Part shown: positions 37-13,186 of the stretch, in pieces
How the letters are laid out: each line of letters opens with the position of its first letter
Position numbering within the stretch: the first letter of the stretch is position 1
Origin: Candidatus Cloacimonadota bacterium
GTDB taxonomy: Bacteria; Cloacimonadota; Cloacimonadia; Cloacimonadales; WRIO01
Assembly: GCA_023230175.1 (NCBI GenBank)
Contig: JALNXV010000057.1
Coordinates: forward strand, 1-13,326
Length of the DNA stretch: 13,326 bases
Direction of reading: 5' to 3'
Notes under the pieces: generated by a model
Told to the model about the DNA's origin: nothing
Seen by the model: the letters and a program-made list of their open reading frames with translations, nothing else
Databases searched by the model: none
Made by a program: the position numbers and the translations under genes

Positions 37-393
37 ATGGCATATGGCAAGAAAGTTTGGGTATTCCCGGATGCTGAGCTTCCGCCTAAAGGGGTCAATC
101 TGATTCCTGGACACGAATCCATCATCATAACTAATACAGGAAAGACGACGGCTAAGATCAAGGTGACTTTGTTCTTCACGGAAAAAGAGCCTGTTTCATT
201 CTTTTCAGAGGTTGAGGCCGAAAGAGTCCGATGCTTGAGGACGAATCAGAAAAAGGATTTCGGCGATTTCATTCCTGAAATTGGCGAACAATACGCAATA
301 ATGCTTGAAAGCGATGTTCCGGTAGTAGCCCAGTATGGAAGGGCAGAACCAAGAGAAGTCAATTTCTATACTACCCCAGGATACTGTGAGTGA
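37..393 (+). CDS. ASRT-family (sensory rhodopsin transducer-like) small-molecule-binding protein
   Basis: This 118-residue protein resembles the Anabaena sensory rhodopsin transducer family, a small all-beta fold forming oligomers and predicted to bind sugars or related small molecules. Matching stretches are KVWVFPDAELPP near the N-terminus, the ESIIITNTG strand, the FFTEKEPV segment, and SDVPVVAQYGR near the C-terminus, where the Anabaena protein has SNVPIVVQHTR. It has no signal peptide and no membrane segment, so it is cytoplasmic. ATG at 37 is chosen over the in-frame TTG at 25 because GGAGG at 27-31 sits five bases before it. The creatininase-family gene follows after 26 bases, so the two are likely co-transcribed. 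No rhodopsin gene is nearby, and a photosensory role is not supported. A sugar or metabolite sensor or chaperone role is inferred from context. Family assignment is fairly sure; ligand unknown. Confidence 0.78.
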   Translation: MAYGKKVWVFPDAELPPKGVNLIPGHESIIITNTGKTTAKIKVTLFFTEKEPVSFFSEVEAERVRCLRTNQKKDFGDFIPEIGEQYAIMLESDVPVVAQYGRAEPREVNFYTTPGYCE

Positions 394-419: not shown

Positions 420-1157
420 ATGCAGTTGATTGATATGTTTTTTGATGAAATAGAAGATGCCAAGAAGAGAAAAGTTCCTTTTATAATCCCTATCGGGACA
501 ATAGAATATCATGCACATCATATGTCATGTGGAACTGATACTATGGTTGTCATGGGTTGCCTGAGGGAACTTGAGAAGGAAAAGGAAATCATTGTATGTC
601 CGCCGGTTTGGTATGGCGTTGCTTCATATGCAGTTGGAGGACCTGAGACTGGAACTATTCAAGTTGATGAAGATTCTTATGGCAACTACATTTACTGCAT
701 TGTCAAATCATTAATCTATGGAGGAGTGAAGAATCTGTATCTGATTCCTCATCATCAGACCGAAGAAGCAGGCCTGATGCCGATGACTATCGCCTGCCAT
801 AAAGCAGCAAAGAAAGTCACTATGGAATACATGGAAGACACCAGAGGAAAAGGATGGTGGGGCAGTGACAGCTACAAGGATTATTATGCCAACCTCGGAA
901 GCGGTGATGACCCATTCTCTTATGTCAAGGTTATTCCATTGATTGGCAAGGATGCACAGCACAAGTGCGGTGGATTCGATCATGCCGGAAAATGGGAAAC
1001 TTCACTGATGCTTGGTACCTATCCTGAGAATGTTGATCTGACACGCTGCAATAGGAATACTGAGTGGTTTGCTCAAAGTGCAAAGGAAGCTACAGTTGCT
1101 AATGGAAAGCACATGGTTGATTGCACATTGGAATGGCTTAGAGATCAAATTAAATAA
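420..1157 (+). CDS. creatininase-superfamily hydrolase, divergent
   Basis: This is a 245-residue cytoplasmic enzyme of the creatininase superfamily, metal-dependent amidohydrolases that open cyclic amides or related bonds. The first metal motif is intact: E29, H31 and D40 keep the spacing E-x-H-x8-D of creatinine amidohydrolase. The second motif, usually NGHGGN or GHYEN, is changed to PHHQTEE (110-116), with H111 kept and Q113 at the usual Gly/Glu ligand position. The C-terminal HAGExETS motif reads HAGKWETS (188-195), with Lys for Glu. These changes argue against plain creatininase activity. Other members act in cyclitol breakdown; from memory, 3-dehydro-scyllo-inosose hydrolase (IolN) belongs here, and it is a reasonable alternative. 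The ribosome binding site AAAGGGAGG ends six bases before ATG. It forms a two-gene unit with the ASRT gene. Superfamily is secure; substrate is not. Confidence 0.8.
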   Translation: MQLIDMFFDEIEDAKKRKVPFIIPIGTIEYHAHHMSCGTDTMVVMGCLRELEKEKEIIVCPPVWYGVASYAVGGPETGTIQVDEDSYGNYIYCIVKSLIYGGVKNLYLIPHHQTEEAGLMPMTIACHKAAKKVTMEYMEDTRGKGWWGSDSYKDYYANLGSGDDPFSYVKVIPLIGKDAQHKCGGFDHAGKWETSLMLGTYPENVDLTRCNRNTEWFAQSAKEATVANGKHMVDCTLEWLRDQIK

Positions 1158-1324: not shown

Positions 1325-2329
1325 ATGAAAAAGTTTGTAGCAGTAGTGCTCATTCTTGGGCTCGTTGCAGGTTCTGTTTTTGCAAATGGAACAACAGAAG
1401 CTGTGAACGCAAAGGAAACGAAGATTGGAGTAAGCATCATGGAGCTTTCTGCTTATACATGGTACTTAGGAGTGGAGGACGGCTGCAACCAGTGGGCTGC
1501 TGATCATCCAGATGCCGGTTTTGTTTTCCAGTTTGAGGATTCAAGATCAGATGTGTCGACAATGCTCAATAATATTGATTCATTGGTGACATGGGGAGCA
1601 AAGGCAATAATTCTCTTCCCAGCTGATGCTTCTTCTGCAATTCCTACAATGAAGCAGTATGTAAAGCAGGGAATCCCATTTGTAATCGGAGATTATGCAC
1701 AGACCACTAAGAGCGATGCTGACATTGTCTGGTCAACATTCGTAGGACATAACATGAGAGCCCTTGGAGAAAAGGCCGGAGCTGTCGCTGTTGATTATCT
1801 GAAGACAACCGGAAAGACTGCCCCTGTTTGCTTGTTTATAAGCAGACCGACTTCAGGACAGGTTTCTGTTGATAGATTCGAAGGTTTCAGAGACACCATT
1901 CTTGCTGCTTTCCCGAATGCAAAGATCATTGAGGAAGGTGATGTAGGTGCAGGTTCAAGAGATTCTTCACAGACTCTGATGGAAAACGTGCTTCAGAGAG
2001 AATCCGTCATCGATGTTGTCTGCGGACATAACGATGCAGAAGTAGTTGGTGCATACAATGCAGCAGTTGCCGCCAATAGGAACGAGATCAAATTCATCGG
2101 AATCGCTGGAGACAAGGATGTTCTTGGTTATGTTACCAATGGAAATGCAATGTGGCTTGGCGAAGTCCTTCAGAATCCAGTAGATCTTGGATACCAGGCA
2201 ACAGAAGCGATCTATGAGACTTATGTCGAGAAGAAAGAACTTCCAAAGGTATGGAATCTTCCTGAACCAGAAGCTATCACACCGGCAAATGTAGCTAAGT
2301 ATGATTGGCAGACATGGTCATGGCTGTAG
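1325..2329 (+). CDS. RbsB-like sugar ABC transporter substrate-binding protein
   Basis: This 334-residue protein is the periplasmic binding component of a CUT2-type (ribose/galactose class) ABC transporter. It opens with a signal peptide: MKK, a hydrophobic core, then SVFA with likely cleavage after A20. The mature protein starts the type-1 periplasmic-binding fold with KIGVSIMELSAYTWYLGVEDG. The repeated features of this fold follow: WGAKAIILFPAD (the usual 'vdgiii' strand), IPFVIGDY, the hinge region DRFEGFRDTI and the C-lobe VVCGHNDAEVVGAYNA and KFIGIAGDKDVLGYV. Length is normal for the family. GGAG ends six bases before ATG. It is the first gene of unit B and works with the ATPase (4487-5986) and permease (5990-6958). 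A stem-loop follows the gene, which may raise its level relative to the membrane parts. The ligand is unknown; a mono- or small saccharide is expected. Confidence 0.9.
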   Translation: MKKFVAVVLILGLVAGSVFANGTTEAVNAKETKIGVSIMELSAYTWYLGVEDGCNQWAADHPDAGFVFQFEDSRSDVSTMLNNIDSLVTWGAKAIILFPADASSAIPTMKQYVKQGIPFVIGDYAQTTKSDADIVWSTFVGHNMRALGEKAGAVAVDYLKTTGKTAPVCLFISRPTSGQVSVDRFEGFRDTILAAFPNAKIIEEGDVGAGSRDSSQTLMENVLQRESVIDVVCGHNDAEVVGAYNAAVAANRNEIKFIGIAGDKDVLGYVTNGNAMWLGEVLQNPVDLGYQATEAIYETYVEKKELPKVWNLPEPEAITPANVAKYDWQTWSWL

Positions 2330-2398: not shown

Positions 2399-4468
2399 AT
2401 GATTAATCTGTTGCCGGAACCCAAAAAATGCATTGACATGAATGGTTCTTCAAGTGAATTCTCAAAAATCAGGATTGATTCCGACAGCAAGGAGATCAAG
2501 CATCTTGCAGAACTCAGATTCTGGAATTATCCAGAAATACTCGCAGATTCAGAAGATGCATATAAAGTAGAAATCAGAAAAGGCCTTGATCTTGAGGAAT
2601 CCGAAGATCCTGTGCTTTTCAAGAAGCAAGGCTATGTATTGAAGATCGATAAGGATTCCTCAATTATTGCATACGATGAGAAATCCGGTCTGGTCAATGG
2701 GCTTACTTCCTTGAAGATGCTTCTTAAGAAATGCGGTGATGCTTATCAACTTCCGCTTTGCTGCATTACGGATTGGCCATCTGTCGAAGTCAGAGCTGTA
2801 GCTCCTACTTTTTCATGGTATGCAGGGTATGGTCGGTTCGGATTCGATAGTCAGCTGTGGGGACTGGATGAGTGGGTCCAGTTCATGAATATCAGCCTTG
2901 ACAATAAAATCAACCAGTTCAATATGGTCATGTATGGGTATTGGCCTTTTGAACTTGAAGAATACCCGGAAACTGTATTCAGGAATGTACCGATTCAAAT
3001 CTGGAATGCTGAGAACAGGCGATGGCTTACAGTTCATTATACCCATCCGAATATTGAAAAGCCTTATCTTGACAAGCTTATTGCCTTGGGACACGAACTG
3101 AATTTCCATTTCTTTGCTTATGTTGGATTGAATTCATATAATGGTGCATATTCAATAAAGCATCCAGAAGCAAGGATGAAGCCCCCGAAATCAGGGAAGT
3201 ATCTGAACGATTTCGATTCCCTTTGCCTAAGCAGCAAGGAGAACGTTGCTTATATCATTAAATCAATGGAGAGGATTGCGGAACTCGGTTTCGATGGTTA
3301 TACACTTGAGGAGAGCGAAGAAGGGTTCTGGTTCTGTGAATGTGATGAATGCAAGAAAAGATGGCATCAAGGAAAAACTCCAGTTGAAGCGAAGCATGCT
3401 GCAAATATCTGGCTTCTGAATCAGATATGGTCTGCTGTAAAGAAAATCAATCCGAACCTTGTCCTGGGAATCCGAGCTTTCAGACAGCCTCCATTGGAAA
3501 AGGACCCGTCATTTCTTGAAGAATGCGTGAAGACAATGCCCAAAGGCGTGAACCTGTTCTGGGCGCCAGGTCTTTATGTCCCTGAAAATGAGTTTGCAAA
3601 ATGGGTAAATGCGTTTGGCAAGGATCATATTTGGGGAAGAGATACAGAATCCAATTCTATTACCTCAACGATGGGCAGGCTTTTCAGGACTTTCAAGTCG
3701 AATATGATCCGTTATGAGGATGAACCTAATGAGCAAGTAATCGAAACTGACATAAGACAGCATATCGGAAGCGTTGATATGCATGTTCATGGCATCAATG
3801 GATTCATGTTCGAATGGTTCGGTCTTTTCATGCACGAATTTGCCCATGGAAATTACGGATGGGGTTCGAAAATGGATACTGAAGTATTCTTCAAGAAAGC
3901 CTGTGAACTGAATTTCGGAGATCTTGGAGATGATGTTCTTTATGTTATCAAGAACATACTTACGATTCATGAAAGCCAGATGCCTTTCTATCAGGTACCT
4001 TTCCCATTCCAGAAAAACAAAATCAAAGATTCTGATATTCCTGTGATTCTGGCTGCAAAGGCTAATCATCCTCACCTGATGGACTTGATCGAAAAGATCA
4101 GGAAACGCTGCTATGACGATCAAAGCATGCGCTGCTGGCTTCCTCATTTTGATAAGATTGCAAATGCAGAAAGGCGAAATGATGTTATCTATGATATGGT
4201 GCTGGCTTCATTACGGTATGAAGACGAAGAAGATCCTGTAAAAAAGGACAGGATTCTGGATGAAGTGCTTTATTACAATGAAAAAGATTTTGATATTGCA
4301 AAGGAGATGTTTTTTGATGTGAATCCTGTGGCGGAAACTGGAGTCAAGAGCTGCATGTTTCCTTACCATGAGATTAAAAGGGAGATTTATAATTTGAGGC
4401 ATCCGGATTCACCAGATAAAGATGTTATCTGTTCTGGTGTCGAAGCATTAGGGTGGCTTTGGTTGTAA
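2399..4468 (+). CDS. cytoplasmic GH20-like glycoside hydrolase
   Basis: This 689-residue protein looks like a retaining-type TIM-barrel glycosidase preceded by the small alpha/beta domain typical of GH20 hexosaminidases and of GH67/GH84-like families. The N-terminus (LLPEPKK) and the stretch from GYVLKI through SGLVNGLTSLKMLL to CITDWPSVEVRAV follow the GH20 domain order, in which a 'D-x-P-x4-R-G' motif opens the barrel. The barrel runs roughly from residue 125 to 470. Candidate acids lie in YTLEESEEGFW (E304, E305, E307, E308), followed by a cysteine cluster CECDEC (C313, C315, C318) like those in GH67- and DUF4838-type proteins. There is no signal peptide, so it acts on an imported glycoside. 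Its ribosome binding site is weak (AGG, 2390-2392). It lies between the binding-protein and ATPase genes, which ties it to the transported substrate. The exact family and substrate are uncertain. Confidence 0.6.
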   Translation: MINLLPEPKKCIDMNGSSSEFSKIRIDSDSKEIKHLAELRFWNYPEILADSEDAYKVEIRKGLDLEESEDPVLFKKQGYVLKIDKDSSIIAYDEKSGLVNGLTSLKMLLKKCGDAYQLPLCCITDWPSVEVRAVAPTFSWYAGYGRFGFDSQLWGLDEWVQFMNISLDNKINQFNMVMYGYWPFELEEYPETVFRNVPIQIWNAENRRWLTVHYTHPNIEKPYLDKLIALGHELNFHFFAYVGLNSYNGAYSIKHPEARMKPPKSGKYLNDFDSLCLSSKENVAYIIKSMERIAELGFDGYTLEESEEGFWFCECDECKKRWHQGKTPVEAKHAANIWLLNQIWSAVKKINPNLVLGIRAFRQPPLEKDPSFLEECVKTMPKGVNLFWAPGLYVPENEFAKWVNAFGKDHIWGRDTESNSITSTMGRLFRTFKSNMIRYEDEPNEQVIETDIRQHIGSVDMHVHGINGFMFEWFGLFMHEFAHGNYGWGSKMDTEVFFKKACELNFGDLGDDVLYVIKNILTIHESQMPFYQVPFPFQKNKIKDSDIPVILAAKANHPHLMDLIEKIRKRCYDDQSMRCWLPHFDKIANAERRNDVIYDMVLASLRYEDEEDPVKKDRILDEVLYYNEKDFDIAKEMFFDVNPVAETGVKSCMFPYHEIKREIYNLRHPDSPDKDVICSGVEALGWLWL

Positions 4469-4486: not shown

Positions 4487-5986
4487 ATGAGTGCAGAAAA
4501 ATTAATTGAATTGAAGAATTGCACAATGGATTTCCCAGGTGTAAGAGCTCTTGATCATGTTGATTTCACTCTGATTTCGGGTGAATGTCATGGTCTCGTA
4601 GGGGAGAATGGCGCTGGAAAATCTACGCTTTCAAAGTGCATAATCGGGGACAATCATATGACCGAAGGGGAATTGTTTGTCCTAGGCAAAAAAATAAGTA
4701 TTCCAAATTACTCTGTTAGAGAATCCCAGAAACTCGGAATTGCTATAGTTCACCAGGAATTCCAGCTTATGAATGATCTTTCCGGTCTTGAGAATATTTT
4801 CCTCGGCAGATACGAAACAAAAGGAGTCTTTGTTGATTGGAAAGCACTTGAGAAACGCGGGAATGAGATCATGGAATTCCTTGAGTGTGATATAGATCTG
4901 AGCCTGCCGGTCAAGAGATTAAGGACTGCTGAAAAGCAGATTGTTCAGCTTGCCAAAGCAATCCTGGATAATCCGAAAGTGCTGATACTTGATGAATTGA
5001 CTGCAGTTCTTCAAGAGCGTGATATCAAGAATATTTTCCGCATCATCAATCTTCTGAAGGCAAAGGGAATGGGAATAATCTATATTTCCCATCGATTGGA
5101 TGAAATTTTCCAATGCTGTGATTCCTATACAGTTCTCTGTGATGGAAAATACATAAACAGTGGCCTTGTAAAGGATATTGACAAGAACGAGCTCATCAAG
5201 ATGATCATCGGAAGAGAACTGAAGAATGTTTATCCTCCCAAGGAAACGAATTTCGGTGAAACAATTCTTGAGGTTCGGAACTTGACTGCACCGAAGGCTT
5301 TCAAGAATATATCTTTTGATGTCAAGGCTGGAGAGGTTGTTGGAATTGCCGGTTTGCTTGGAGCAGGCAAGACAGAGCTTCTTCATGCCATCATGGGAAA
5401 CCATAAGATAGAATCCGGACAGATCATATACAAAGGGAAGGAAGTGCATATTAAGAATCCACGCGAAGCAGTAAAGCTTGGATTCGGAATTGTTCCCGAT
5501 GAACGAAGAATGCTTGGATTGAATATGCAGTTCGATATCAAGGACAACACAACGCTTCCATCTATAGATAATTTCACTAAGCATAGGATTTTCATTGATC
5601 ATGAAAAAGCAGCAAAAGCCGCTTTCGATGAGAATGAGAAGCTTAATCTGAAGTATACATCCCTCTGGGATTCAGTGAAGAAGCTTTCAGGCGGAAACCA
5701 GCAGAAAATCGTTGTTGCCAAATGGATGCTCAGGAATTGCGATGTGTTCCTTCTTGATGAACCGACAAGAGGCATAGATATTGGAGCCAAGTTCGAAATC
5801 TATACTCTTATTCATGATCTTGCAGAGCAAGGCAAGGCTGTTGTCCTTGTTTCGCCTGAGCTGGATGAATTGATTGGTCTTTGCAACCGCGTATATATCA
5901 TGTTTGAAGGGAATATGATGGGAATGGTTCAGGGAAAAGACATCAATCAGGAAACTATTATTACGAATCTATTAGGAGAAAAATAA
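4487..5986 (+). CDS. RbsA/MglA-like sugar ABC transporter ATPase (two nucleotide-binding domains)
   Basis: This 499-residue protein carries two fused ABC ATPase domains, as usual for CUT2 sugar importers, and powers uptake at the inner face of the membrane. Domain 1 has Walker A GENGAGKST (39-47), a degenerate signature LRTAEKQ (145-151), Walker B ending DELT (169-172) and an ISHRLDE switch region. Domain 2 has Walker A GLLGAGKTE (289-297), an intact LSGGNQQ signature (400-406) and DEPTRGID from 424. DELT instead of DEPT in domain 1 is unusual. AGGAG at 4476-4480 ends six bases before ATG, and the gene starts 18 bases after the glycosidase stop. The permease starts three bases after its stop. 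Assignment is firm; the sugar is not known. Confidence 0.95.
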   Translation: MSAEKLIELKNCTMDFPGVRALDHVDFTLISGECHGLVGENGAGKSTLSKCIIGDNHMTEGELFVLGKKISIPNYSVRESQKLGIAIVHQEFQLMNDLSGLENIFLGRYETKGVFVDWKALEKRGNEIMEFLECDIDLSLPVKRLRTAEKQIVQLAKAILDNPKVLILDELTAVLQERDIKNIFRIINLLKAKGMGIIYISHRLDEIFQCCDSYTVLCDGKYINSGLVKDIDKNELIKMIIGRELKNVYPPKETNFGETILEVRNLTAPKAFKNISFDVKAGEVVGIAGLLGAGKTELLHAIMGNHKIESGQIIYKGKEVHIKNPREAVKLGFGIVPDERRMLGLNMQFDIKDNTTLPSIDNFTKHRIFIDHEKAAKAAFDENEKLNLKYTSLWDSVKKLSGGNQQKIVVAKWMLRNCDVFLLDEPTRGIDIGAKFEIYTLIHDLAEQGKAVVLVSPELDELIGLCNRVYIMFEGNMMGMVQGKDINQETIITNLLGEK

Positions 5987-5989
5987 AAA

Positions 5990-6958
5990 ATGAGTGGATT
6001 TGATGAAAAAAACAAGCGTTTTAGAGGTGGTTTCAAGTCATTCTTCAGTGAATGGATGATTCTTTTTCTCTTTATCTTTTTGGTGATTATCTGCTGTATC
6101 TGTTCACCGAAATTCAGAACGACAAATAATATAATGAACGTTCTTCGTCAGGCTTCATTCATTTCAATCATTGCAATGGGAGAATTCTTCGTCATTCTTA
6201 CTGGAAACATGGATATGTCCATTACTTCCACTATAGGCATGACATCAATCTTCTTCTCTGGCTTTGTCGTGAACAGCGGAATGCCGATGTGGCTGGCTAT
6301 TGTAATAGTTTTCGCCATTTCGACGCTGATGGGAGCAGTCAATGGAATCCTGACCGTGTATGGTAAAGTTCCTTCTTTCATTTCTACGCTTGTGGTCATG
6401 AATATCATGAAAGGAATTTATTTCATTTATTCAAAGGGATTGCCGATTTCGGGACTTCCTGACAGCTTCAATTTCTTCGGTGCCGGATATGTTGGATTCA
6501 TCCCGTTCCCTGTGATACTGATGATCCTGGTAGGTGTCATCTTGTATTTCCTTACGCAGCATACTCCACTAGGACGCTCATTCTATGCAATAGGCGGTAA
6601 CATGGAAGCTGCTAAGCTTTCAGGTGTCAATGTCAAGTTCGTAGGAGTTCTGGCATTTGTCATCTGTGCTTGGCTTTCTTCTCTTGGTGCTCTTGGGCTT
6701 ACTGCAAAGACTCTTAGCGGAAATGTTATGATTGGAGAGAACCTGCTGTTCGATGTCATGACGATTGTCGTTCTTGGCGGTACTTCTCTTGCTGGTGGAA
6801 GAGGAAAAATCGTTGGAGTCATAATCGGAGCTCTGTTCCTTCAGGTGATTTCAAATATCATGGTTCTTCTTTCCATCAACACCTATTGGCAGTGGGTCGT
6901 TAAGGGAATCATTCTTATCATAGTTGTAGTTATTGATTCAAATACAAAGCGTGACTAG
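5990..6958 (+). CDS. RbsC-like sugar ABC transporter permease
   Basis: This 322-residue, very hydrophobic protein is the membrane channel of the unit B importer. It shows about eight to ten hydrophobic spans. Family marks include FITGN-like [14 protein letters not shown] near residues 65-80, [15 protein letters not shown], the cytoplasmic coupling region [13 protein letters not shown] (about 203-215) that meets the ATPase, and [16 protein letters not shown] near the C-terminus, all typical of RbsC/BPD_transp_2 permeases. The AGGAG ribosome binding site lies within the end of the ATPase gene, eleven bases before ATG, so translation is probably coupled. The mutarotase-like gene follows after two bases. 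Confidence 0.93.
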
Positions 6959-7303: not shown

Positions 7304-7430
7304 GGAGGAGCAATATGTTTGGAGAGATTAGGATTCCAGATGCTGAATTCAAGGAAAGAGTTCAGAAAGCAGCAGCGATACTAAGAAGGGAAAAGCTTGA
7401 TGCCTTGATTGTCAATTCAGGAGAGGCTGA
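7304..7430 (+). repeat. 127-bp direct repeat, internal copy
   Basis: Bases 7304-7430 are identical to 13200-13326 (offset 5896). The match starts at the ribosome binding site GGAGGAG, covers the first 116 bases of the M24 gene and runs to the window end. The base just before differs (A at 7303, T at 13199), so the left boundary is real. Confidence 0.97.
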
Positions 7431-8487
7431 CTATGCGAATGTCAGATACTTCTCTGATTACTGGCCGCTTTTCGAGCGTGCCGGTGTTGCGATTTCGGCT
7501 GGTGGCGATGCTGCCCTGATGGTTGGGCCGGAAAGTGCGAAGTACGGTGCTGACAGAAGCAAGATTGACAAGGTGTTCGTGCTAAAGGATTATCGCGAAG
7601 GTGCAGATCCGGCTTACCCGGAACTGAATGCAAGCTCATTCAACGATGTATTCAAGGCAATCGGTGTTCATGGAAAGAAGATCAGGATCGGGATTGCCAG
7701 CACTCTTGATACTACATTGACTGAATATGATGGGATCAAGGCTGCGTTCCCAGAAGCCGAGATAGTCAAGGCCAATCCGATAATGGTTGAGCTAAGGCAG
7801 ATCAAGAGCGAGAATGAACTTGCCTGCCTCAGGGAAGGCTACAGGATTGCAGAGCTTGCTACCCAGCAGGTCATCAAGGAGATCAAGCCTGGCATGACCG
7901 AGCTGCAGATGGTCGGTGTTGCACAGCGTGTTGTTTATGAGAACGGAGCTGAATACGAGGGTCTTCCAATGTATGTGTTCAGCGAAGCTTCGACTCGTCA
8001 TGCTATTTCAAGATCAAGCTACAGGCAGTTCCAGAAGGGAGACATCGTTCAGCTGAATCTTTCAGCGAAGATCGATGGCTACAGCGCTGCTCTTGGGTAT
8101 CCGATCATTCTTGGAAAGCTGGAAGGCAAGAGAAGGGATGTCGTTCTGTTCTGCAGAGATGCTCATTTCTGGTCGGAGAAGCAGGTGAAGGCTGGAGTGA
8201 TGGCATGCGACATTGCAAAGAACTTCTACAAGTACTTCTGTGACAACGGATACAAGGACAACTATGTATACGGGCCGCTTCATGGAACTGGAATGATTGA
8301 GGTTGAGTCTCCATGGTGCGAGACCTCATCGAATTATCCGCTTCAGCCTAACATGACATTCAACGTGGACACATTCATTTCCGGCGATACATTCGGATGC
8401 CGCTGGGAGAAGGGGATTGCTGTTACCAAGGATGGATGCCAGGTCATGTCGCCTGAAATCGGAAAGCTTTACGAACTGGAGTTCTAG
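7315..8487 (+). CDS. M24-fold creatinase-like protein lacking most metal ligands (copy 1)
   Basis: This 390-residue protein has the creatinase/aminopeptidase P layout: an N-terminal creatinase_N domain (about 1-165) and a C-terminal pita-bread domain (about 170-390). It is cytoplasmic. The five peptidase metal ligands D, D, H, E, E read N248, A259, H323, D352, E365, so three are substituted and the dinuclear centre is very unlikely. His229 (TRHAIS) sits where creatinase has its catalytic His and methionine aminopeptidase its auxiliary His. Creatinase itself works without metal, so a creatinase-like C-N hydrolase is more plausible than a Xaa-Pro peptidase. The ATG at 7315 has AGGAGGAG four bases before it; the in-frame TTG at 7294 has no support. 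It is the last gene of unit B, 33 bases after the mutarotase gene, and is paralogous to 12017-13186. Substrate unknown. Confidence 0.85.
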   Translation: MFGEIRIPDAEFKERVQKAAAILRREKLDALIVNSGEADYANVRYFSDYWPLFERAGVAISAGGDAALMVGPESAKYGADRSKIDKVFVLKDYREGADPAYPELNASSFNDVFKAIGVHGKKIRIGIASTLDTTLTEYDGIKAAFPEAEIVKANPIMVELRQIKSENELACLREGYRIAELATQQVIKEIKPGMTELQMVGVAQRVVYENGAEYEGLPMYVFSEASTRHAISRSSYRQFQKGDIVQLNLSAKIDGYSAALGYPIILGKLEGKRRDVVLFCRDAHFWSEKQVKAGVMACDIAKNFYKYFCDNGYKDNYVYGPLHGTGMIEVESPWCETSSNYPLQPNMTFNVDTFISGDTFGCRWEKGIAVTKDGCQVMSPEIGKLYELEF

Positions 8488-8497
8488 GTTTTATTTC

Positions 8498-8535
8498 TAT
8501 CATTGAACCAGTTTATAAATTCTGGTTCAATGATA
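8498..8535. terminator. stem-loop ending unit B
   Basis: A fourteen-base-pair perfect stem (arms 8498-8511 and 8522-8535; TATCATTGAACCAG and its complement) encloses a ten-base loop, eleven bases after the M24 stop codon. It is followed by AT-rich DNA but not by a clean T-run, so termination may be partial or factor-assisted. Position between two independently controlled units supports a terminator role. Confidence 0.65.
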
Positions 8536-8619
8536 TATTGATTATTACAATATTCCTAGGTTTAAAGACTTTTCCTTGTTGTTAATTGAGTTTTATTTGT
8601 ATGTTGGAAGTTAATTGTT

Positions 8620-8631
8620 TTTAACGTTAAA
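8620..8631. promoter_or_regulatory. operator box C1 (TTTAACGTTAAA)
   Basis: A perfect 12-bp palindrome centred on CG, of the LacI-family type, lies 38 bases upstream of box C3 centre to centre. Together they flank a different palindrome at 8638-8657. Confidence 0.55.
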
Positions 8632-8637
8632 TTGAAA

Positions 8638-8657
8638 TAATTGTTGGTCAACAATTA
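8638..8657. promoter_or_regulatory. 20-bp palindrome between the two CG boxes
   Basis: Nine-base arms, perfectly complementary (core TTGTTGGTCAACAA), are separated by GT. The symmetry is unlike the CG-centred boxes on either side and suggests a second regulator, for example of GntR type, or a shared site. Its centre is about 38 bases upstream of the predicted start point, close to the -35 position. Confidence 0.55.
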
Positions 8658-8669
8658 GTTAACGTTAAT
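8658..8669. promoter_or_regulatory. operator box C3 (GTTAACGTTAAT)
   Basis: This CG-centred box matches the unit B operator core GTTAACGATAAC at ten of twelve positions. It directly abuts the -10 element, so a bound repressor would exclude RNA polymerase. Confidence 0.55.
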
Positions 8670-8673
8670 ATAT

Positions 8674-8679
8674 TATAAT
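8674..8679 (+). promoter_or_regulatory. -10 element of unit C
   Basis: A consensus TATAAT lies 29 bases before the start codon. No good -35 hexamer stands 16-18 bases upstream, where the palindromes lie, so the promoter may need an activator. The predicted start point is near 8686. Confidence 0.5.
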
Positions 8680-8680
8680 G

Positions 8681-8693
8681 CTGGCTTTGCCAG
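8681..8693 (+). other. leader hairpin before the second binding-protein gene
   Basis: CTGGC-TTT-GCCAG forms a five-pair stem and is placed like the hairpin at 1295-1309. If the TATAAT at 8674 is used, transcription would start inside this element, so it would act as DNA or another promoter must be used. Confidence 0.35.
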
Positions 8694-8708
8694 AAAAAGG
8701 AGTAGAAG

Positions 8709-10220
8709 ATGAAAAAGTGGCTAAAGGGAGCGCTGCTCTTATTAGTTGTTGTTTCTTTCGTTTTGATTAGTTGTGAGGGAAATTCAAATAGCGGGGTTTC
8801 CAGCGATAAAGCAACTAATACAACTGCTGAGCAAGTATCGAGTGAACCTGCAAGTTCAACAAAGAGTGCAAGCGACAAAATTAAAATCACTGTAGTTGGA
8901 GATGGTGGTAACAATCAGGTTGCTTGGCTTTGGAATCAGCAAGAAATGGAAGATGAATTTGGATGTGAAATAGAAATTGTGTCTGTTCCATTTGAAAACT
9001 TATATACAAAGTTGAAGACTGAGTTTGTAGGGAATACAGGTGCTTATGATATCATTGTATACTTCCCGAAATTCATGGGTGATTTTGTTGAAAACGGTTA
9101 TATCATTCCTATAGATGATTACATTGCGAAAGATGACCCGAATTTGGCTGACATTGTTCCGGCTTTCCAGGAACTTTATGGCAAATGGGGTGGAAAGACC
9201 TACAACCTTCCTTATGATGGAGATGTCCTTGCATTATTTTATCGTAATGATATATTTACTGATCCTATTGAAAAACAGAATTTTAAGGCCAAATACGGTT
9301 ATGAACTTCATACACCAAAGACTTGGGATGAATATATGGATATTGCTGAATTCTTCACAAGGAAAAAAGGCGATACCTTAATGGGAAAGGTTCTTACAGA
9401 AGATTTCTATGGAACAGCAACTTATGGACAGCAGGATTTCCAGTATTGTTGGTATATGTGCATTGCTGGAAGCATGGGAGCTGATTATTTTGACGAAGAT
9501 ATGAACCCCACTATTAATTCGCCTGAAGCAGTCAAAGCTTTGGAATTATTCAAAGAGCAATTCAAGTATTGCCCACCAGAATGCACAAACTTTGGTTTTG
9601 ATGAATTGCAGGCAATCTTTCTTGAAGGAAACTGTGCAATGGAAATTCAATGGACTGATCCTGGACGTGTAGGACAGAATCCAGAAATATCCAATATTTC
9701 TGGAAAAATTGGAACAGCACTTGTACCAGGTACCAAACAAGCAGATGGAACCATCAAGAACACCGCGACCTTGGCAGCTGGGCGTGTAATGGCAATTTCC
9801 TCAACTTGTAAGAATCCTGACATTGCATATCAAATAATCAGATACATGTCTCAGGAGGCAAGTCTTGCGTATGTTTCAAGTCCACAGTCAGGACAAGATC
9901 CATTTAGATTCTCACATTATGAAAACACAGGTGCTTTCGAAATGTTTGAAAGACAAAGCGATGCAGTTGATTACCTTAATGGAATAAAGGAAAACCTAGA
10001 ACATGGCTATCCTGAATTGATGATTCCTGGTGCCCAACAATATTTGGATCAACTTGCAGTAAATATCAATGATTATATTTCTTCAAATACAATGACTGCA
10101 CAAAAAGCTCTTGATAACACCGCTAAGCAATGGAATGATATTACTAATACTTATGGAAAAGACAATATGAAGACTGCATATAAAAATATGCTTGTTCAAG
10201 TTCGTTCGGTTGGTCTGTAA
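8709..10220 (+). CDS. lipoprotein sugar ABC transporter substrate-binding protein (CUT1 type)
   Basis: This 503-residue protein is the binding component of a second importer, belonging to the large family-1 extracellular solute-binding proteins. It begins with MKKWLKG, a hydrophobic core and a lipobox LISC, giving a lipidated C22, followed by a Ser/Thr/Asn-rich linker to about residue 55. The folded domain opens with KIKITVVGDGGNNQVAWLWNQQEMEDEFGCEIEIVSVPFENLYTKLKTEF and includes YDIIVYFPKFMGDFVENGYIIPIDDY, typical of oligosaccharide-binding proteins, and EGNCAMEIQWTDPG with AAGRVMAISSTCKNPDIAYQ later. GGAG at 8699-8702 ends six bases before ATG. A stem-loop follows the gene before the permeases. 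No ATPase is encoded in unit C, so a shared MsmK/UgpC-type ATPase elsewhere is expected. Substrate unknown. Confidence 0.9.
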   Translation: MKKWLKGALLLLVVVSFVLISCEGNSNSGVSSDKATNTTAEQVSSEPASSTKSASDKIKITVVGDGGNNQVAWLWNQQEMEDEFGCEIEIVSVPFENLYTKLKTEFVGNTGAYDIIVYFPKFMGDFVENGYIIPIDDYIAKDDPNLADIVPAFQELYGKWGGKTYNLPYDGDVLALFYRNDIFTDPIEKQNFKAKYGYELHTPKTWDEYMDIAEFFTRKKGDTLMGKVLTEDFYGTATYGQQDFQYCWYMCIAGSMGADYFDEDMNPTINSPEAVKALELFKEQFKYCPPECTNFGFDELQAIFLEGNCAMEIQWTDPGRVGQNPEISNISGKIGTALVPGTKQADGTIKNTATLAAGRVMAISSTCKNPDIAYQIIRYMSQEASLAYVSSPQSGQDPFRFSHYENTGAFEMFERQSDAVDYLNGIKENLEHGYPELMIPGAQQYLDQLAVNINDYISSNTMTAQKALDNTAKQWNDITNTYGKDNMKTAYKNMLVQVRSVGL

Positions 10221-10227
10221 TTATTAT

Positions 10228-10253
10228 TTGCGGCAGGGATCTCCCTGCCGCAA
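10228..10253 (+). other. intercistronic stem-loop after the second binding-protein gene
   Basis: Twelve-base arms (10228-10239 and 10242-10253, GC-rich core GCGGCAGGG) pair perfectly around the central TC; a real loop of about four bases leaves eleven pairs. The downstream sequence TTTGAGAGG lacks a U-run and holds the next ribosome binding site. It matches the placement of the hairpin at 2348-2372 and probably stabilises the upstream message or attenuates the permease genes. Confidence 0.7.
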
Positions 10254-10267
10254 TTTGAGAGGTTTTT

Positions 10268-11170
10268 GTGTTGTATAAACGAAATAAAGAAAGGACATTA
10301 ACGCAGTCTCAAATTGATAAACGTTTTGGTTTATCTTTAGTCTTGCCTGCGATAGTAATTGTAATAATAATTGCTGTCTTTCCATTGTGTTATGCGTTAT
10401 TTTTGAGCTTTTTCAAATATGAACTAGCGACTTCAATACCAAAGAAATTTGTAGGATTAAATAACTACATTCGTGTTTTTTCTGATGCAAGATTCTGGAA
10501 TGCATTGAAAGTGACGGCCATAATTGTTGCAGGGGGAATCATTTTACAATTAGCAATTGGCTTAATTGTTGCACTTTTACTTAATAAAGAATTTCATGGG
10601 AAGAAAATTGTAACCGCCTTCTTGCTTATTCCATCTGTCATAGCCCCAGTAGTTGTTGGTTTTATTTTTAGGATGATGTTTAATGATCGGTATGGTCCAA
10701 TCAATTATTTCCTTTCTTTGCTACATATTTCCCCAGTTAGCTGGTTGAGCAAACCTATCCCCTCTTATTTTGCTGTTATGTTGGCAAATGCTTGGGAATG
10801 GTTTCCTTTCATGATGCTCATGCTCCTAGCTGGCCTTCAATCAATATCAAAAGATCAAATGGAAGCAGCTGAATTGGATGGATGTAATGATTTGCAAAAA
10901 TTCTTTTATGTTACACTTCCAAATCTTTGGAATATTATACTTACGGTAGTTTTAATTCGAGCGATTGAAGATTTCAAAATGTTTGATTTGATTTGGGTTC
11001 TCACTGCTGGGGGACCTGGTGTAGCTACGGAAACTTTGAATATATATACTTATAAACAAGGTTTTAATTTCTTCAGCATTGGATATGCGTTGGCTTTGGC
11101 TGTTGTTCAAACAGTTTTGACTTTCTTTATCGTAAAAACCATGTATACCCGAATAAAGAAAAAGAATTGA
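10268..11170 (+). CDS. MalF/UgpA-like sugar ABC transporter permease
   Basis: This 300-residue membrane protein is one of the two channel subunits of the unit C importer. It has about six transmembrane spans, the first at about residues 25-45 (LVLPAIVIVIIIAVFPLCYALFL region). The coupling loop EAAELDGCNDLQKFFYVTLP begins near residue 199, which is the conserved EAA motif that docks on the ATPase. WVLTAGGPGVATETLNIYTYKQGF near the C-terminus is typical of UgpA-type permeases. It lacks the large periplasmic loop of E. coli MalF. The start is GTG with GAGAGG five bases before. It overlaps nothing and is followed ten bases later by the partner permease. Confidence 0.92.
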   Translation: MLYKRNKERTLTQSQIDKRFGLSLVLPAIVIVIIIAVFPLCYALFLSFFKYELATSIPKKFVGLNNYIRVFSDARFWNALKVTAIIVAGGIILQLAIGLIVALLLNKEFHGKKIVTAFLLIPSVIAPVVVGFIFRMMFNDRYGPINYFLSLLHISPVSWLSKPIPSYFAVMLANAWEWFPFMMLMLLAGLQSISKDQMEAAELDGCNDLQKFFYVTLPNLWNIILTVVLIRAIEDFKMFDLIWVLTAGGPGVATETLNIYTYKQGFNFFSIGYALALAVVQTVLTFFIVKTMYTRIKKKN

Positions 11171-11180
11171 GGTGCTGAAA

Positions 11181-12005
11181 ATGAAGAAAAAAATAACATG
11201 GAAATCGGTTTTATGGATTCTCCTTTTAATATTGATTATCATTATTGTTGCTTTCCCACTTTATTGGATGTTTATTGGAGCATTCAAAACGAAAAATGAG
11301 TTTTTCACTAATCCGCCAGTTTTCAGTTTAAAGCCATTGAGAACTAATGCTTTTCAAGTTGCCTTGTTTGGTATTGGTGGAAAGGGCTTAAAAGACAGCT
11401 TGATAATAGCTAGCTTTTCTACAATTATTTCCTTGTTCATTGGAGCATTAGCTGCACATGGAATAGTCCATTATCACATTGGAAAGAAAAACTTGATTTT
11501 CATTTTTCTTGTAATTCAGATGATGCCGCCTGTTTCGTTGGCAATACCCTTATTCTTAATGTTTAATGAACTGAAGCTTCTTGATACGTATGTTGCATTG
11601 ATTATTTCTAATACGGTATTTAATTTGCCTTATGCGATTTGGCTTTTGACAGGTTTTTATGAGGAGATTCCAGAATCAATTCTTGAAGCAGGAAAGATCG
11701 ATGGGGCTTCGAATTTAACAATTTTTACCAAATTGGTTCTTCCTTTGGTGAAACCTGGTTTAATGGCTACCGGTTTCTTCACATTTATCTTTGGCTGGAA
11801 TGAATTCATACTAGCATTTACTTTCTGTAGAACAAAAGTAAAACCATTAACGGTAGCGATTCCGACTATGGTTGGATCTGATACTATTGTCTGGGAACAG
11901 GTATATGCCACAAGTATTGTTGCCATTGTCCCTGTGCTGATTCTTGCTATTTTTATGCAAAAATATCTAATTAGAGGACTGTCCTTTGGTGCTGTAAAGG
12001 AGTAA
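11181..12005 (+). CDS. MalG/UgpE-like sugar ABC transporter permease
   Basis: This 274-residue protein is the second channel subunit of the unit C importer. A positively charged start (MKKKITWK) leads into a first membrane span, followed by YWMFIGAFKTKNEFFTNPP, a standard MalG-family stretch. The EAA loop reads EAGKIDGASNLTIFTKLVLP from about residue 169. The C-terminal MQKYLIRGLSFGAVKE is the classic family ending. ATG at 11181 is chosen because GAGG (11169-11172) stands eight bases before it; the GTG at 11172 overlaps that site. The MalF-like gene ends ten bases upstream and the M24 gene starts eleven bases after its stop. Confidence 0.92.
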   Translation: MKKKITWKSVLWILLLILIIIIVAFPLYWMFIGAFKTKNEFFTNPPVFSLKPLRTNAFQVALFGIGGKGLKDSLIIASFSTIISLFIGALAAHGIVHYHIGKKNLIFIFLVIQMMPPVSLAIPLFLMFNELKLLDTYVALIISNTVFNLPYAIWLLTGFYEEIPESILEAGKIDGASNLTIFTKLVLPLVKPGLMATGFFTFIFGWNEFILAFTFCRTKVKPLTVAIPTMVGSDTIVWEQVYATSIVAIVPVLILAIFMQKYLIRGLSFGAVKE

Positions 12006-12016
12006 AGGGGTTTATT

Positions 12017-13186
12017 ATGGAAAAATTTATAATTCCGGATTCCGAGTTTTCTGAACGTTTCAGAAGAATTCAATCGGAAATGAAAGAAAATGGTGTTGAT
12101 GTGCTTCTTGTTTTTGGAAATGAAGCTGAACCACAATTCCTTCGGTATCTTTCTGATTATTGGCCGTCTTTTGAAACCGGTGGAGTTTTGCTTGGACAAG
12201 ATGGCGATCCTATTCTGCTTATTGGTCCTGAATCTTTGACCTATGCCAAAGACCATTCAAGAATTTCAAGAATATTACGAATACAGTCTTTTAGGGAATC
12301 TTCCAATCCTGAATACCCTGACTTGAAAATTGAGTCTTTTGACGATGCTCTTGATCTTGTTTCTTCAAAACAAAAACTTTCAAAATGTGCGATAGCTGGT
12401 TTTAATATTATTTCTCAACTTGTTTATATTGATTTCTTGAAATCTGTCCAGAGAAGAGGCGGATTTGTGGTAAATGGCGATTTACTAATAATGAAATTTA
12501 GAATGATAAAATCTGAAAATGAGCTTCAAATAATGAAAAAAGCTTCTTGCATTTCAAATGCGGCAATGAAGTTTACGATAGACAACATCAAGTTAGGAAT
12601 GTCCGAATTCCAAGCTAAAGGGCTTGGAATACAAAAGATGTTTGAGCTTGGTGCAGAAAGTGAAGCATATCCAACATGGGTTTTAGTAGGAAAGGGTGGT
12701 AATCAAGCAATTGCTAGGCCAAGAAGGTGTGTTATTCATGATAATGACCTTGTTCATATTAATTTAGGGGCAAGAGTTGAGGGTTATGCTTCTTCGATTG
12801 GTAGACAAGTGATTTTTGGAAAAGTGGATGATTGGGTTCTCTCTGCAATTGAGAAAGCATACGAAGCTCATGACTTGGTTCTCAAGCAATTATATGATGG
12901 TAATAACGCCAAAAAGGTAGCTTCTACATATTATAATTGTATGAAAGATTACAAGGAATGGCTTCTATATGGGCCATGCCATGCTTCAGGATTGATGGAA
13001 GGGGAACCACCTTGGATTGAATCAAATAGCGATTATCTTTTACATGAGAATATGACTTATTGTATTGATATTTTTATGCGAAAGCCAGGAACAGAATATG
13101 GATTTAGAGTTGAGGATAGTGTACGAGTTGGAAAAACTTGTGGTGAAAATATGACAAATTTCCCAAAAGAAATCTTTAGGAAATAA
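12017..13186 (+). CDS. M24-fold creatinase-like protein lacking most metal ligands (copy 2)
   Basis: This 389-residue paralogue of the gene at 7315-8487 shares its start (IPDxEF), the RYxSDYWPxFE motif, the GPES motif and the whole two-domain layout, but is clearly diverged. The peptidase metal ligands D, D, H, E, E read N249, S260, H322, D351, E366, the same pattern of loss as copy 1. The His at 229 of copy 1 is replaced here by Q230 (GNQAIA), so the two may differ in substrate or one may not be catalytic. It is cytoplasmic. AAAGGGG ends six bases before ATG, eleven bases after the MalG-like stop, so it belongs to unit C. Base composition is visibly more AT-rich than copy 1. A Xaa-Pro peptidase label from family similarity would probably be misleading. 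Confidence 0.85.
   Translation: MEKFIIPDSEFSERFRRIQSEMKENGVDVLLVFGNEAEPQFLRYLSDYWPSFETGGVLLGQDGDPILLIGPESLTYAKDHSRISRILRIQSFRESSNPEYPDLKIESFDDALDLVSSKQKLSKCAIAGFNIISQLVYIDFLKSVQRRGGFVVNGDLLIMKFRMIKSENELQIMKKASCISNAAMKFTIDNIKLGMSEFQAKGLGIQKMFELGAESEAYPTWVLVGKGGNQAIARPRRCVIHDNDLVHINLGARVEGYASSIGRQVIFGKVDDWVLSAIEKAYEAHDLVLKQLYDGNNAKKVASTYYNCMKDYKEWLLYGPCHASGLMEGEPPWIESNSDYLLHENMTYCIDIFMRKPGTEYGFRVEDSVRVGKTCGENMTNFPKEIFRK

Follow-up and report, generated by a model that had tools for sequence, protein, structure and literature searches.

The window analysed here, i.e. the whole stretch of 13,326 nucleotides from contig JALNXV010000057.1 of a Candidatus Cloacimonadota bacterium, encodes two proteins of the M24 fold, viz. 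copy 1 (positions 7315 to 8487, 390 amino acids) and copy 2 (positions 12017 to 13186, 389 amino acids), from both of which the residues for peptidase chemistry are absent; these two genes and all other features of the window described below lie on the forward strand. Because the two proteins belong to a conserved and intact family, show a rebuilt active site and have genes placed mostly among sugar genes, they are best read as non-peptidase enzymes acting on a sugar-derived molecule. The interpretation that we favour, with a probability of roughly 0.55, is that both copies are enzymes of the M24B fold that function in sugar catabolism and carry a remodelled, probably metal-independent active site.

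Both proteins match PF00557 above its cut-off (copy 1 with 90 bits, together with a match of 47 bits to PF01321), and they are 33% identical to each other. A structure prediction, which the preliminary description of this DNA had proposed, was made for copy 1, and the resulting model (pLDDT 91.6) has a plain M24B (pita bread) fold; when its fold matches are ranked by Z, creatinase comes first, and ectoine hydrolase, SPT16 and DddP are also matched. The preliminary description had placed at the five metal ligand positions of M24 enzymes (Asp, Asp, His, Glu and Glu) the residues N248, A259, H323, D352 and E365 of copy 1 and N249, S260, H322, D351 and E366 of copy 2. All ten residues are found at these positions, and they fall opposite the five ligands both in HMMER alignments to solved M24 enzymes (Xaa-Pro peptidases) and in a MAFFT alignment, where the metal-type M24 sequences L081, L086, L087 and L088 from genomes G001-G003 keep H/D/D/H/H/E/E at the same columns (a second alignment shifts L087 by one position at the catalytic His). 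In copy 1 the first Asp ligand is lost to Asn248 (codon at 8056..8058) and the second to Ala259 (8089..8091), the first Glu ligand has become Asp352 (8368..8370), and His323 (8281..8283) and Glu365 (8407..8409) are kept; the corresponding residues of copy 2 are Asn249 (12761..12763), Ser260 (12794..12796), Asp351 (13067..13069), His322 (12980..12982) and Glu366 (13112..13114). The claim that three of the five ligand positions are changed is therefore borne out, but one of the three changes is the conservative replacement of Glu by Asp, and due to this a His, an Asp and a Glu remain. Further, two His residues not considered in the preliminary description are also gone, viz. the M24 catalytic His and second His, which we take to be His243 and His361 of AMPP (a numbering that also appears in the PDB titles of the fold matches); the catalytic His position is occupied by Ile231 in copy 1 (8005..8007) and by Ile232 in copy 2 (12710..12712).

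The same changes are seen in the relatives of both proteins. In the best 120 of 4404 hits for copy 1 (query included, as also for copy 2), the five ligand columns contain N in 120 sequences, A in 107 and S in 13, H in 120, D in 120 and E in 120. In the best 120 of 1121 hits for copy 2, the first column contains Q (93), G (19), N (3), C (3) or M (2), the second T (64) or S (56), and the remaining three H (120), D (82) or C (38), and E (120). The column of the catalytic His holds Ile in all 240 sequences of the two sets, and that of the second His is V in the 120 sequences of the copy 1 set and G in the 120 of the copy 2 set. Alongside His323, Asp352 and Glu365, the residue Glu331 stays, Glu329, Arg233 and Trp334 are each kept in at least 117 of the 120 sequences of either set, and Arg363 is also part of the kept set; Arg44, like Arg233 and Trp334, is mostly kept. 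A replacement His near the lost catalytic one was also considered, and copy 1 does have His229, but its close relatives carry Asn or Ser there and this candidate was rejected. These residue states support the conclusion that neither copy can build the two-metal site of M24 peptidases in the usual manner, and to this extent the earlier claim that the metal site is lost holds. That both copies are metal-free is likely, but no more than likely, because His323, Asp352 (or Cys) and Glu365, which are presumably the ligands of metal site 2 in M24 enzymes, remain.

In a tree of 46 M24 sequences (rooted for drawing only, and with long-branch warnings for L093, L114, L106 and others), 37 sequences including both copies form one clade with support of 100/99. 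L103, L089 and L083 were omitted from the tree, sequences longer than 460 amino acids were cut to their last 430, and L103 was also omitted from the second alignment. All 37 clade members have Asp at neither of the two Asp ligand positions and possess neither the catalytic nor the second His. His323, Glu329 and Glu331 are kept in 37/37, and among the 36 complete members Glu365 is present in all, whereas position 352 is occupied by Asp in 31 of them and by Cys in the other 5. Four further genes (L128-L131), which were selected on profile score with their residues not yet inspected, show the same residue states as the clade. Among eight lower-scoring M24 genes, L132 and L135 are of the metal type, L133 also lacks the ligands, and the catalytic-His column of L134 could not be judged. 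Since both copies lie in one clade whose members all lack the Asp ligands and the catalytic His, the loss of these residues is supported as being ancestral and maintained, and gene decay is ruled out by the open frames and the invariant residues, including those of the pocket motifs, in both copies. Judged by this tree, the non-metal branch of M24 is old, many-branched and a single clade.

However, the Asn that both copies carry at the first ligand position should not be interpreted as a sign of their common descent. Among the 119 listed relatives of copy 2 only 2 carry it, and all others have Gln, Gly, Cys or Met at this place; it is therefore the absence of Asp, and not the presence of Asn, that represents one inherited state; a reading of the tree (with no formal count of changes) likewise rules out inheritance of a common Asn. 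The kin of copy 2 have mostly Gln or Gly there. Copies 1 and 2 are placed in different sub-branches with other sequences in between, which indicates that they are not a recent pair. Close relatives of the two proteins are patchy in distribution, as order-wide searches at the strict cut-offs E 1e-90 and 1e-100 (295 genomes each) found the centre genome alone; in the phylum to which the genome of L040 belongs, a copy 2 relative occurs in 9 of 198 genomes at E 1e-40. The expectation that these proteins are mislabelled in databases is supported, since those listed relatives that bear a name are entered as Xaa-Pro aminopeptidase, Xaa-Pro peptidase, aminopeptidase P or M24 metallopeptidase. A relative of copy 1 in the gut bacterium Mediterraneibacter gnavus (79% identity) is among those carrying a peptidase-type name.

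Copy 1 is strongly linked to sugar-type genes. In the best 80 of 440 confirmed copy 1 relatives, ranked by likeness to copy 1, 62 loci extend at least 2.5 kb on either side of the gene, and within this distance, counting the same strand only, an ASRT-family gene is found in 49 of them, a creatininase-family gene in 51 and a gene of the L-rhamnose-mutarotase family (RhaM) in 17; 61 of the 62 have one or more of these three. A glycoside hydrolase (GH) and a transporter of the window's kind are also present in eight loci. The other neighbours of the trio include genes for a LacI regulator, a Gfo/Idh dehydrogenase, DUF4432, a ureidoglycolate-lyase-like protein, a sugar acetyltransferase, an FGGY kinase, a polysaccharide deacetylase and GH3, and plainly unrelated neighbours (RNase HII, a magnesium-chelatase-type protein and leucyl-tRNA synthetase) also occur among those scanned. 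In eight whole genomes, 8 of 9 ASRT genes have a non-metal M24 gene no farther than 5 kb away, where 0.1 is expected; G001-G004 were chosen for holding a copy-1-type gene, and when those four loci are excluded the count is 4 of 5. The creatininase-family genes bear out the linkage only in part: of the 13 in these genomes, four have a non-metal M24 gene at a distance of 75 bp or less. Each of the 20 genes counted as non-metal M24 was residue-checked. For 14 loci of the other branches, a labelled ABC sugar transporter, LacI or Gfo/Idh gene is present in 9, and L129, which is 26% identical to copy 1, is adjoined by an ASRT gene and an ABC transporter, with a partial RhaM match. The gene caller used on the loci was rough and missed the creatininase-family gene of L121, which is present. 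Sequence identity was also considered as a measure of constraint, and over eight long-operon loci the median identity to the window is highest for copy 1 (76.7%); this was set aside because the loci had been ranked on their likeness to that very gene, a choice that works in its favour. Hence, of the earlier proposal of a sugar-linked hydrolase family, the sugar linkage holds, strongly so for copy 1, whereas the assignment as hydrolases is unsupported.

It is hardly credible that the two proteins are ordinary M24 peptidases or dipeptidases with an unusual but working metal site. With Xaa-Pro dipeptidase and aminopeptidase P they have in common the fold, the sequence family (PF00557 and PF01321 above cut-off), the database names of their relatives and the best Foldseek E-values, but they have lost both Asp ligands and both His residues, and their third changed ligand is Asp in place of Glu. 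The absence of the Asp ligands and His residues throughout the clade, when the four metal-type sequences of G001-G003 keep all of them, leads us to reject the peptidase reading, and the NCBIfam peptidase models give the copies 61 and 60 bits against a cut-off of 630. A true creatinase or ectoine hydrolase working together with the neighbouring creatininase-family gene is also very improbable. Creatinase (creatine amidinohydrolase, 1CHM) does rank at the top by Z, and in the creatinase sequence L094 the two Asp are likewise replaced by N and A. However, L094 keeps the catalytic His (presumably His232 of creatinase) where both copies have Ile, and due to this they are not simply creatinase-like; further, L094 does not share their Glu329, Trp334 and Arg233. 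Its gene neighbourhood is also different, as the genes of the creatine-to-glycine pathway, including those for sarcosine oxidase and serine/glycine metabolism, are present around L094 but none is found in the window, where the neighbours are of sugar type. Phe62 and Arg64 in the N-domain of creatinase presumably form a substrate clamp, and F53 of copy 1 lies opposite a Phe of L094, whereas copy 2 does not conserve the Arg; in that region the alignment is weak. Ectoine hydrolase (DoeA/EutD; 6TWJ, 6TWK, 6YO9), which shares the M24B fold of copy 1, is described in PMC5924519 as a ring-opening, non-peptidase enzyme within a catabolic cluster. The copies score far below the NCBIfam DoeA equivalog (50.1 and 43.3 bits, cut-off 613), and in the DoeA-like sequences L095 (two) and L096 the catalytic His is kept and Tyr replaces His323, no true DoeA sequence being in the alignment. 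These DoeA-like M24 proteins, located on plasmids of Sinorhizobium (L095) and Rhizobium (L096), are annotated as Xaa-Pro peptidase; with Tyr at the position of the ligand His, they are by their aligned residues a second, separate non-metal M24 group.

We also consider it unlikely that the two proteins are mononuclear metalloenzymes, in which His323, Asp352 (or Cys) and Glu365 would still hold one metal ion. The retention of these three residues in 120/120 relatives of copy 1 and the occurrence at the middle position of D (82) or C (38) in the copy 2 set and of 31 D and 5 C in the complete clade members, both being common metal ligands, are consistent with this possibility. Against it, the metal-bridging Asp and the catalytic His are gone in 37/37 clade members, and creatinase, which keeps His and Glu there, is metal-free. 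The DMSP lyase DddP, like the role proposed here for the copies, combines the M24 fold with non-peptidase chemistry, but it binds metal and has retained the ligands for it (PMC4108388); these invariant ligands are not kept in the copies. A further alternative, possible though improbable, is that of a pseudoenzyme, i.e. a partner of the ASRT and creatininase-family proteins that catalyses nothing itself but binds a metabolite or acts as a scaffold, similar to the non-catalytic M24 folds of PA2G4/EBP1 or Spt16. The known catalytic residues are indeed lost, and copy-1-type genes are tightly linked to that of a predicted sensor protein (ASRT; main text of PMC2739507). However, 55 columns are invariant over 32 sequences, many of them polar and including Glu329, which is absent from the metal-type sequences, and the loci L117-L120 and L123-L126, several of them short contigs, have no ASRT or creatininase-family gene in view. 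PA2G4/EBP1 and the Spt16 N-domain, which belong to eukaryotic proteins with other roles, have the M24 fold without peptidase activity but no link to sugar genes. The abstract of PMC3888471 calls PA2G4 a non-peptidase M24 pseudoenzyme; together with ectoine hydrolase and SPT16, both among the fold matches, it shows that metal-free creatinase is not the only precedent, contrary to what had been stated earlier.

The remaining genes of the window begin with an ASRT-family (PF07100; TM1070) predicted small-molecule-binding protein (40..393; 81.4 bits, cut-off 25). The creatininase-family protein (PF02633) that follows (420..1157; 107.4 bits, cut-off 31.3) misses the creatininase equivalog cut-off (72 of 235 bits). 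Its residues E29, H31, D40, H111, H112 and E193 are each kept in at least 95% of 66 sequences (residue checks used creatininase-family hits above 120 bits and 220 amino acids, and ASRT hits above 60 bits). If the metal ligands of creatininase are E, H, D, H and E, as we take them to be, E29, H31, D40 and H112 are present, and in the alignment used Thr114 stands at the place of the last Glu. A ribose-type sugar-binding protein (Peripla_BP_4; 1325..2329) is followed by a GH84/GH20-like predicted glycoside hydrolase (2399..4468), named from a GH20b domain and fold matches of a model with pLDDT 69.6; Pfam assigns it no catalytic domain, and at E 0.01 no PDB sequence matches it. Its invariant Glu304-Glu305 may occupy the place where GH84 presumably carries an Asp-Asp pair, and if so its substrate may not be an N-acetylhexosaminide. 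Then come an ABC transporter ATPase with two ABC_tran stretches, of RbsA type by likeness (4487..5986), an ABC permease of RbsC type (5990..6958) named, like the second permease below, from position and a reading of its sequence, and the L-rhamnose-mutarotase family protein (PF05336; 6961..7281; 91.3 bits, cut-off 23.4), which is below the NCBIfam equivalog cut-off (46.3 of 99.6). Between the two copies lie the SBP_bac_1 solute-binding protein of a second ABC transporter (8709..10220) and its first (BPD_transp_1; 10268..11170) and second (11172..12005) permeases. In a scan of positions 8300-8900, four sites resemble promoters (1.6 expected) and one, within the next gene, resembles a terminator; no conclusion is based on them.

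Some further features of the related loci may be recorded here. G001, the genome of L012, contains eight non-metal M24 genes, and the five of its loci inspected (7/8 genes) also carry ABC sugar-transporter genes. In L078 and L080, the trio of M24, ASRT and creatininase-family (Crn) genes adjoins a gene like the GH3 gene of L073 and an alpha-L-rhamnosidase-type gene (in L080 by likeness), which together with RhaM hints at a 6-deoxysugar theme. Proteins of about 700 amino acids are encoded near copy-1-type genes in L016 (13623-15701), L033 (11985-14132) and L038 (6978-9131); the first two have no Pfam match, that of L038 resembles that of L033, and all three are possibly glycoside hydrolases of no assigned family. 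A cupin-like gene (L009, 11980-12468, and 12 more loci, 13 in total) also recurs near copy-1-type genes, and the one member scanned matches ureidoglycolate lyase and DUF4867 alike.

If the two copies are non-peptidase enzymes of sugar catabolism, as we favour, the transporter would import a glycoside or sugar, the GH84/GH20-like enzyme would release and the mutarotase-like protein equilibrate the imported sugar, and the M24 protein would act in the cytosol on a sugar-derived molecule without a two-metal centre, by acid/base or nucleophilic catalysis through the kept carboxylates and His323. The creatininase-family protein might carry out a neighbouring step, and the ASRT protein might bind or sense the same metabolite. 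As a first guess the bond attacked may be a C-N bond (amide or amidine), because creatinase and ectoine hydrolase, the nearest non-peptidase enzymes by fold score, cleave such bonds. Several observations weigh against this interpretation. By E-value the best Foldseek matches of the copy 1 model are Xaa-Pro peptidases, and no activity, substrate or ligand-bound structure was found for any member of the family. The 80 loci, being the best by likeness and many of them close kin, are not independent; all three partners are missing from the 2.5 kb around L028 (an ASRT gene is 4.3 kb away); and the glycoside hydrolase, transporter and other neighbours differ among loci, which does not point to one particular substrate. 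Non-metal M24 genes occur without any ASRT gene in four of the eight genomes (G015, G043, G058 and G151), 9 of the 13 creatininase-family genes lie more than 5 kb from any non-metal M24 gene, and the other five of the 14 loci from further branches (L118, L119, L124, L125 and L126), some on short contigs, show no labelled gene of these sugar-related kinds (sugar transporter, LacI, Gfo/Idh). A bolder and rather doubtful extension is that of a metal-independent M24 family, recognisable by the loss of the catalytic His and by the motif H-x(5)-E-x-E with Asp/Cys and R-x-E after it, which together with a creatininase-family enzyme and an ASRT sensor would form a sugar-side counterpart of the creatinine-creatine pathway, the M24/creatininase-family pair perhaps removing an amide or amidine from (amino)sugars released by the GH84/GH20-like enzyme.

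Among the titles listed in searches of open-licence literature, a scope that leaves most subscription journals outside and does not speak to absence in print, none is about the non-metal M24 branch. According to the main text of De Souza, Iyer and Aravind 2009 (PMC2739507), intracellular ASRT proteins are predicted to sense sugars, and ASRT/ASRAH genes are linked in sugar operons with isomerase, aldolase, kinase and transporter genes. No word beginning with creatinin, M24, aminopeptidase or hydrolase occurs in that main text (the supplement apart), and a link of ASRT to M24 or creatininase genes is therefore not told there. The named relatives of the two copies bear peptidase-type names although the residues for peptidase chemistry are absent. 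A conserved family of this kind, linked to its partners, leads directly towards a new enzyme activity in the carbohydrate metabolism of the gut, and it gives a cellular context for the ASRT family, the general function of which is called open in PMC2739507.

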